Positions 5-13,908 of a stretch of 39,473 bases of DNA are shown here, piece by piece. The stretch's first letter is position 1. Each line of letters opens with the position of its first letter. Both the position numbers and the translations under genes were made by a program. This DNA is from Desulfurellaceae bacterium. Lineage in GTDB: Bacteria; Desulfobacterota; Binatia; Bin18. Under the pieces are notes generated by a model. The model was not told the origin of the DNA, ran no database searches, and worked only from the letters and a program-made list of their open reading frames with translations. The stretch covers positions 1 through 39,473 of the forward strand of contig JAGWBB010000041.1 in NCBI GenBank assembly GCA_021296095.1, read 5' to 3'.

Positions 5-391
5 TTAGCTACCCTCCTGCGAGCTGGAATTCGAGACGTACAGATTGCCCTCGGCGTCATAACTGGCGAAGTTGGGGATGGAGATCGGAAAGTCCCCGGC
101 GTGGTCGGCAATCAGGGAGACCGTGCCGTCTTGGGGAGACAGCCGCATGACCGCCCTGTGGCGCAGGTCGCAGTACACGAAATTGCCTTCGCGGTCGAGC
201 GTCACCCCGTTCGGAATAGCCCGGTCGGGCAGCTGGGCCACCTGCTCGACCACCCCGTCGGGACTGACTTTATACACCTGCCCGCGGCGACCACCGCCCC
301 AGACGTTGCCCTCTTTATCCACCACCACACCTTCGGCGCGCAGCACGCCGGAACCAAAAATCTCGATCGCTGCGGTAGGAATCGTTGCCAT
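5..391 (-). CDS. SMP-30/gluconolactonase-like beta-propeller protein, short form
   Basis: The 128-residue product has propeller repeats typical of SMP-30/gluconolactonase/LRE-like lactonases: GVVVDKEGNVWGGGRRGQVY near residues 22-41, GVTLDREGNFVYCD near 63-76, and YDAEGNLYVSNS near 111-122. Family members usually have about 280-300 residues, so only the first half is present before TAA at 5-7. The start is placed at ATG 389-391, which follows AGGAG with an 8-nt spacer; an upstream in-frame GTG at 412 would put that SD inside the gene. It lies 24 nt downstream of the CoA-transferase and is probably cotranscribed with it. The early stop may reflect a frameshift, a real truncation or a contig-edge error; the window ends before this can be judged. 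Family is fairly clear; substrate is unknown. Confidence 0.7.
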   Translation of the reverse strand: MATIPTAAIEIFGSGVLRAEGVVVDKEGNVWGGGRRGQVYKVSPDGVVEQVAQLPDRAIPNGVTLDREGNFVYCDLRHRAVMRLSPQDGTVSLIADHAGDFPISIPNFASYDAEGNLYVSNSSSQEGS

Positions 392-12222: not shown

Positions 12223-13305
12223 CTAGTGTCTGAAATCCTGAATCGACCGGGCGGGCATGCCGTCTCGGCGGGAAATCGCCCGGGTCACCGAGCGTGTCAT
12301 GCTGCCGAAAGTCGGCAGCCAGCACGAGTGGCGGCCCGGCCCGCCGACAACCAGAATCATCAGCTGCTCCGGCTGGCGGACGAGCGGCAGCGCAGCCTCA
12401 CCGGGAAACAGATCGTCCGGCACGAACCCCATGCCGTACATCCCGCCGGCTTCCCACAGCTCGCGCGGCACGCGGGCGTGCTGAAAGACATAGTCTCTGA
12501 TCTCGTCTTTGCCGATACCGTCCCGGGCCAGGATCTGGGCGTGTTCCGGTCCCAGGGCCAGAATCGGCTCGCCCAAGGCGTAGGCGTTGTTCGAGCCCAT
12601 GCCGGCCATGGTGCTGGCGACCGTGGTCAGGATGCCCGATGCCGCCGTGCTGATGTGGTCGTTGATATTGTGCGGTCCCTCGGCCCCACACACCGTGACG
12701 GTGCTGGTGTCGGCCCCAAAGCCGCGCTCGCGGTGCAGCGGGGTCCACGGGTTTTCGGCTTCGTTCTCGGCAATGCAGTACGAGTATTTGGACGGCTGGC
12801 CCTGGGTTGAGCGATCCAGCAGGCCCGGCACCCCGCCGCCGATATTCAGCAGCACCAGCCGAATCGCCCGGCCAATCGTAGCGTTCGGACGCCAGCCCTG
12901 GCCAAAGGCGTTATAGCCGCCGTTGACACCCAGCTCCTGGGCGATGGGACCGTTGAGAATGACCAGGGGTGCACACGGGTGGGTCGTGCTCTGGACCGCG
13001 TAGAGGTTGAAGGGGCTCTCCAGCAGAGCGTCGAGGGCGGTCAGGACGACCGGGAAATACTCCGGCACACAGCCGGCCAGAACCGCGTTCACGGCCACCT
13101 TCTCGACCGTCGCGATTCCATATTTTGGCGGCACCGGCCCGAGTTCGTCTTGCGGACCGCGGTCGCTCCAGGCCAGCAGGCGCTCGACCCGCTCGGCCGT
13201 CGGCGGAATGATCGGCAGGCCGTCCGTCCAGCCCTGGTCGTAAAACCAGTCGTTGACGGCCTCGAGCGAGTCGTCGAGAGCAATCTTCTCGGAACGCAGA
13301 TCCAT
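12223..13305 (-). CDS. unknown 360-aa partner of the UGSC selenoprotein
   Basis: No named family was recognised with certainty. The protein is soluble, alpha/beta, and begins DWFYDQGWTDGLPIIPPT near residues 19-36. Conserved-looking blocks include TTHPCAPLVILNGPIAQELG (Cys111), NATIGRAIRLVLLNIGGGVPG, TVCGAEGPHNINDH (Cys206) and VVGGPGRHSCWLPTFG (His326, Cys328). The conserved Cys and Gly-rich blocks could bind a cofactor or work with the selenocysteine of its neighbour; this is inference. Its ATG at 13305 follows the selenoprotein TAA by 3 nt, so the two are almost certainly translated together. The YchF-like gene follows after 11 nt. Confidence 0.75.
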   Translation of the reverse strand: MDLRSEKIALDDSLEAVNDWFYDQGWTDGLPIIPPTAERVERLLAWSDRGPQDELGPVPPKYGIATVEKVAVNAVLAGCVPEYFPVVLTALDALLESPFNLYAVQSTTHPCAPLVILNGPIAQELGVNGGYNAFGQGWRPNATIGRAIRLVLLNIGGGVPGLLDRSTQGQPSKYSYCIAENEAENPWTPLHRERGFGADTSTVTVCGAEGPHNINDHISTAASGILTTVASTMAGMGSNNAYALGEPILALGPEHAQILARDGIGKDEIRDYVFQHARVPRELWEAGGMYGMGFVPDDLFPGEAALPLVRQPEQLMILVVGGPGRHSCWLPTFGSMTRSVTRAISRRDGMPARSIQDFRH

Positions 13306-13308
13306 GTG

Positions 13309-13908
13309 TTACGCCGAGCGTTGCCGCAGCTGCTTGCCCATCGGCCTGAGGAAGCGGCCCCGATAGTCCGCGACCAGCTGCTCCGCCGGTCGGGTCAGAA
13401 TCGCCATCACTTCGTCGGCCACCGCCCCGGCTTTGCGCTCAACCTCGTCGGGAGTATTGCCGGCCAGCGGGTGCGGAATCACCGCAATCGGCATACCGCC
13501 CATGCCCAGGGTCTGCGACTCGGCGCGGCCCAGCGGAGCAAATTCGTCGCTGCAAATGACTGCGGTCGGCACCCCGCGTTTTTCCAGCTCAATGGTGTCG
13601 TGGAGACCCCACGACGTACACGAGCCTCAATCACCGATGGCGACAACCGCGGCGTCGCACTGGGCCAGCCGGGTCAGCACCTCATCCGACGCCGGCAGAG
13701 ACGCGTTTTTCTCGCCGCTGATACGGGAGAATGCTCCCAGGCGGGTACGCAGGATGGCCTCGACTTTTTCGAGCAGCAAACCGGCGTTGGCCTTCCGGTT
13801 GTTGAGAAACCCGATGCTTTTGCCCGCGAGATCGGCCGTCCGGCGCGCCAGCGGAAGCTCCGTGGTGCGCGCCTCGGCCGTGGGGTTGAGGACTTCCAGC
13901 TGTCCCAT
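13309..13908 (-). CDS. UGSC-type selenoprotein with in-frame TGA (Sec94)
   Basis: Two adjoining reading segments in the same frame, 13908-13630 and 13626-13309, are separated only by TGA at 13627-13629. Reading TGA as selenocysteine gives a continuous 199-residue protein with the motif VAIGD-Sec-GSCTSWGLHD. The Sec-x-x-Cys pair is a redox-type motif and the UGSC signature is known for a (seleno)protein family. A bacterial SECIS hairpin begins 11 nt after the TGA. The N-terminal half has AGKSIGFLNNRKANAGLLLEKV; the C-terminal half has GVPTAVICSDEF and GMGGMPIAVIPHPL, Rossmann-like strands. The ATG at 13906-13908 follows AAGGAGG by 5 nt. Automatic annotation would split it into two ORFs. Biochemical role is unknown. 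SelA/B/C must be elsewhere in the genome. Confidence 0.92.
13597..13615 (-). promoter_or_regulatory. bacterial SECIS element
   Basis: On the minus strand GTCGTGG-GGTCT-CCACGAC forms a perfect 7-bp stem with a GGUCU loop, starting 11 nt after the TGA. The loop has the G-U dinucleotide needed for SelB binding and the same GGUCU as the E. coli fdhF element. The loop begins 18 nt after the TGA, within the usual bacterial range. Confidence 0.9.

Follow-up and report, generated by a model that had tools for sequence, protein, structure and literature searches.

The window, the whole stretch of 39,473 nucleotides that was analysed, carries on its minus strand a gene for a UGSC-family selenoprotein (13309..13908). 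The gene runs from an ATG at 13908, with the ribosome-binding sequence AAGGAGGG upstream of it, to a TAA at 13309; an earlier annotation made from the letters alone (the sequence-only reading) had given no strand. Under translation table 11 the gene is split into two open reading frames, 13953-13627 (108 aa) and 13572-13309 (87 aa). When the in-frame TGA at 13627..13629 (minus strand) is read as selenocysteine (Sec), a single frame of 199 aa results, with U94-G-S-C97, a UxxC motif in which Sec94 is paired with Cys97. The sequence-only reading had joined the two frames through the TGA in the same way, into 199 residues with Sec94 in Sec-Gly-Ser-Cys, and both the translation and an uninterrupted profile match bear this out: the Pfam UGSC model (PF24696) matches residues 5-172 unbroken across the TGA (E = 1.7e-52, 178.4 bits, cut-off 25). 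The NCBIfam model NF041046 scores 139.4 bits, above its curated cut-off of 125. With both curated cut-offs passed and the U/C-x-x-C motif present, the protein is, judged by sequence, a new member of an already catalogued family (PF24696, NF041046). A second gene on the same strand (12223..13305, 360 aa) has its ATG 3 nt past the UGSC stop, and we refer to its product as the partner. At E 0.001 the partner has no match in Pfam or in NCBIfam, and we treat it as an unclassified family, defined here by its paralogues and by its fusions to UGSC. No Rfam family was found across the window at gathering scores.

In the Global Ocean Sampling data, UGSC was among the most abundant selenoprotein families, with 255 sequences (PMC2398784). 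The function of UGSC is unknown in the literature (PMC2398784, PMC13188914), in agreement with the statement in the sequence-only reading that the family has no firmly established biochemical role. Our literature searches found the phrase "UGSC family" in no paper, and no paper that joins "selenoprotein" and "Binatota".

The genome to which the window belongs (4.3 Mb in 185 contigs, 97% complete) encodes SelA (517 bits), SelB (383 bits) and SelD (385 bits), the last adjoining SelB and carrying one in-frame TGA itself, and a tRNA-Sec with anticodon UCA adjoins selA. The search for selA, selB, selC and selD that had been proposed from the window alone thus finds all four, and the accompanying claim that the organism makes selenocysteine is well supported by them. 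The same genome has two PrdB-like, PF07355-related genes in which a TGA interrupts a U-P-x-C motif (L152, contig C56:11425-11784, and L153, contig C17:4622-4978); from their sequences these are likely two further selenoproteins, and their neighbours include a luciferase-like monooxygenase and an amidohydrolase gene. Given the full Sec machinery together with the PrdB-like TGA genes, the sequence evidence is that the organism very probably makes selenoproteins.

We collected 123 UGSC domains from the window genome and related loci. At the column of the Sec codon, 117 of them have TGA, four have TGC, one has GGC and one has CAG. Homologues were expected to have Sec or Cys at position 94, and the only exceptions are the GGC and CAG copies, both of which are degenerate, low-scoring and located within fusions. 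These two copies (L087:3930-5774 and L108:3102-4772) are UGSC-partner fusions with Gly (GGC) or Gln (CAG) in place of Sec, and their sequences suggest that they are possibly catalytically dead paralogues. Another genome of the same class (G198) has UGSC in about 11 copies that carry the in-frame TGA; in this draft, called 100% complete, the SelA match is only marginal (E 5e-4) and no tRNA-Sec scores above the cut-off. One missing contig could explain this gap, since selA and selC are neighbours in the window genome.

Just downstream of the TGA, where a bacterial SECIS element is expected, lies a SECIS-like hairpin (13597..13615, minus strand) with arms at 13615-13609 and 13603-13597 and a loop at 13608-13604. 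Its stem, GTCGTGG/CCACGAC, has 7/7 pairs, the loop is GGTCT (GGUCU in RNA), and it starts 11 nt past the TGA, all of it as the sequence-only reading had described. Taken by itself, the window sequence is only mildly unusual in this respect, with 4% of synonymous recodings also reaching 7 pairs, so the weight for the hairpin is carried by the comparison of homologues. Across the TGA homologues (n=116) the stem has a mean of 5.9/7 pairs, compared with 1.4-3.8 when the 3' arm is slid by 1-3 nt. Residue 100, at +18..20 past the TGA, is encoded in most of these homologues by TGG or TGC, and the base opposite it in the stem, the third of the codon at +24..26, varies with it, being C with TGG in 63/65 cases and G with TGC in 28/28 (63:2 vs 0:28, Fisher 1e-21, a value that is indicative only, the sequences being related and their kinship uncorrected). 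With this covariation a change of residue is offset in the third base of another codon, which is what an RNA element would require.

With conserved protein on both sides of an in-frame UGA (the profile match runs through it, and 117/123 homologues keep it), we regard it as virtually certain, on sequence grounds, that the window gene encodes a true selenoprotein with TGA read as Sec. That the TGA instead ends translation or is a sequencing error, with the halves a pseudogene or separate proteins, is very hard to credit: the two open reading frames can formally be called apart, but TGA is present in 7/7 paralogues and 117/123 homologues with both flanks conserved, the hairpin covaries, and the Sec machinery is complete.

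The window genome has seven UGSC copies, all with TGA, and seven paralogues of the partner, each adjoining a UGSC copy on the same seven contigs. UGSC occurs in 30 of the 297 genomes that we sampled in the phylum, and the partner is present in 30/30 of these; one additional genome of the 297 has a partner fragment only. Of 107 pairs of adjacent genes, separated by a median of 46 nt, 78 have UGSC first and 29 have the partner first. A mirror-tree comparison of these 107 pairs gave a correlation of r = 0.84 between the UGSC and partner distance matrices, to which shared species history contributes, the largest value in 2000 permutations being 0.16. At about two dozen loci there is a convincing in-frame fusion, in which the Sec codon is the sole stop and UGSC is always the N-terminal half. 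In five Poribacteria the UGSC and partner genes lie apart, yet each of these genomes has one UGSC and no more. Given the pairing, the fusions, the co-divergence and the 1:1 ratio in the Poribacteria, UGSC and the partner most probably belong to one enzyme as its subunits, as far as sequence comparison can tell. A fusion of UGSC to a domain named "Unknown_1" was already described in 2008 (PMC2398784). What is new here is the UGSC-partner system and the expansion of its paralogues; the selenoprotein family itself is known. Strongly kept residues of the partner are Cys79 (108/113), Cys177 (98/113) and Glu180 (113/113), and also Arg146 and Trp187.

At the UGSC loci of the window genome, CoA-transferase family III genes are found at 3/7, and the other neighbours include luciferase-like monooxygenases, a cyclase, an amidohydrolase and a TetR regulator. 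TctC transporter receptors and MmgE/PrpD recur at UGSC loci elsewhere. Clustering of the neighbours gave several catabolic families and no constant third partner. The neighbours are suggestive of the breakdown of diverse organic compounds and single out no one pathway. In the window a DsbA-like gene (PF01323, 14016-14621, plus strand) is divergent from the UGSC operon and has a single Cys (SSLC) in place of the expected CxxC.

Outside its own family, the known selenoproteins nearest to UGSC are GrdB, GrdF and GrdH (glycine, sarcosine and betaine reductase) and PrdB (D-proline reductase). Like UGSC, these have a UxxC Sec site followed at equal distance by E-x-x-G-I-P-T, and their Sec subunit acts with a second subunit, an arrangement that the pairing of the genes suggests for UGSC. 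When 69 alignment members were scanned against NCBIfam, 13 families were touched, five of them being GrdB, GrdF, GrdH, PrdB and an umbrella family; GrdB was matched by 16 of the 69, and the best E among these five Grd/Prd families was 4e-5. The similarity is local, covering about 40-80 residues, and lies far under the curated cut-offs (the window protein scores 19.7 bits against TIGR01917, whose cut-off is 602). With scores so far below the family cut-offs, we rejected an assignment of UGSC to GrdB or PrdB proper. The UxxC and ExxGIPT of UGSC also align with those of the PrdB-like L152 and L153 of the same genome, with an hhalign probability of only 4% from two template sequences. In sequence terms, the GrdB/PrdB resemblance supports a similar use of Sec in UGSC. 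Unlike the GrdB/PrdB systems, UGSC is widespread in genomes of uncultured environmental bacteria, and its partner is not recognisably GrdE or PrdA. A search of the partner against all of Pfam, GrdE/PrdA included, found no detectable similarity at E 0.05, and so no pyruvoyl group is indicated.

To consider the fold we used a natural fusion (L123), whose predicted structure has a pLDDT of 94 and a pTM of 0.93. In this model the UGSC half consists of five alternating beta-alpha units, in which strand three ends at Sec. It resembles Rossmann-like and periplasmic-binding-type domains (Foldseek, VIA). Foldseek and VIA searches with the fusion model were dominated by the UGSC half and returned many Rossmann-like folds, with no single family prominent. 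Sequence searches of solved structures gave nothing significant with the fusion alignment; with the UGSC alignment we obtained only implausible matches, such as talin, which we discarded. The UGSC domain is thus predicted to be Rossmann-like, not thioredoxin-like. UGSC had been supposed to be thioredoxin-like with a redox role (PMC2398784), and the predicted topology disagrees with that fold, a case of prediction against supposition. The family as described (PF24696, NF041046; Global Ocean Sampling, PMC2398784) and the proteins studied here agree in scoring above the curated cut-offs, in UxxC and in having Sec in most members; they differ in that the family was described as probably thioredoxin-like, whereas here it is predicted to be Rossmann-like and occurs together with a single unclassified family, either in cis, as a fusion, or 1:1 per genome.

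The fold bears on the possibility that UGSC is a thiol/selenol oxidoreductase for stress defence, peroxiredoxin- or thioredoxin-like in function, in which Sec and Cys97 would cycle via a selenenylsulfide with peroxides or protein disulfides and the partner would serve it as a dedicated docking protein or redox client. The UxxC motif is a classical one for redox proteins, a thioredoxin-like fold with a redox role is what PMC2398784 supposed, and there is a GST gene near one paralogue as well as the DsbA-like gene divergent from the window copy. However, the alternating beta-alpha topology is Rossmann-like, and seven diverged pairs in one genome, together with carbon-catabolism neighbours, are easier to reconcile with substrate-specific enzymes than with a general redox defence, so we consider such an oxidoreductase unlikely.

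The predicted structure of the partner alone has a pLDDT of 95. In Foldseek, ranks 1-14 were taken by class I fumarases, with E from 6e-4 to 1.4e-2, and cyclic amide hydrolases came next, but comparison with the fumarase and cyclic amide hydrolase folds gave TM-scores of only 0.16-0.28, rmsd of 13-17 and VIA Z of 4.6-4.9, within noise, and comparison with the E. coli FumA sequence gave nothing (hhalign probability 0.1%). We therefore take a fumarase-like fold of the partner, as modelled, to be a lead only. The same results are relevant to a non-redox enzyme, be it an isomerase, a lyase or a hydrolase, whose selenolate would act as nucleophile or bind a metal; the partner, with a weak fold similarity to class I ([4Fe-4S]) fumarases or to cyclic amide hydrolases, would be the catalytic body. 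The conservation of Cys79, Cys177 and Glu180 fits this explanation, and the two cysteines might hold a metal. Since the structural matches lie within noise and similarity to FumA is absent in sequence, we think it improbable.

By analogy with the Stickland enzymes, we lean somewhat towards reading 13908-12223 (minus strand) as a two-gene operon for a two-component selenoenzyme akin to the Sec subunit of glycine/D-proline reductase, with the partner providing the substrate site. This reading takes the pairing, the Sec site and the fusions from sequence and the fold and the position of Sec from prediction; the chemistry and the substrates we infer. SelB, directed by the hairpin, would put Sec at the UGA, a step that is strongly supported. 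The UGSC subunit would be Rossmann-like, its third strand would end at Sec and the resolving Cys would follow three residues later, as the predicted structure and conservation indicate, and the 360-aa partner would bind it, as the fused relatives suggest, and presumably supply the substrate pocket. The selenolate could then attack a carbon or other electrophilic centre of the substrate held by the partner, splitting a C-N or C-X bond as in the GrdB/PrdB analogy, and Cys97 or a partner Cys (Cys79, Cys177) might free the product, forming a selenenylsulfide that a thiol reductant would reset. In glycine and D-proline reductases the selenenylsulfide is reset by a thiol system after the Sec chemistry (PMC10298544). 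For Cloacibacillus, cleavage of the C-F bond in fluoroacetate has been proposed as the task of a GrdB-like pair (PMC10838667), a similar two-component arrangement proposed for C-X cleavage; unlike the UGSC system, that operon has recognisable glycine reductase protein B components, and the abstract draws no link to UGSC. The seven copies of the window genome would serve different substrates.

More tentatively, UGSC and the partner may represent unrecognised selenium-dependent two-component reductases, kin of the Stickland Sec subunit with a new substrate-binding subunit and present in at least seven copies per genome in uncultured bacteria, for C-N/C-X cleavage of many compounds; we offer this broader proposal as a doubtful one. 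If true, it would extend GrdB/PrdB-type selenium chemistry to a paralogue-rich family of uncultured environmental bacteria. With UGSC and a defined partner as the putative active unit, the natural single-chain fusions of about 560 residues, such as the 579-aa L123:289-2025, make purification, structure determination and substrate screening directly possible. Three genomes of one family in the same phylum (G033, G208 and G252) each have at least 11 copies of UGSC, the majority of them within fusions, as open frames 550-640 codons long; some show a U-S-S-C variant motif and a possible N-terminal signal peptide, and some copies are without TGA. A kinship of the window's organism with the Candidatus Binatia lineage is suggested by the record L121, whose UGSC and partner share 79% identity with the copy on contig C74 of the window genome.
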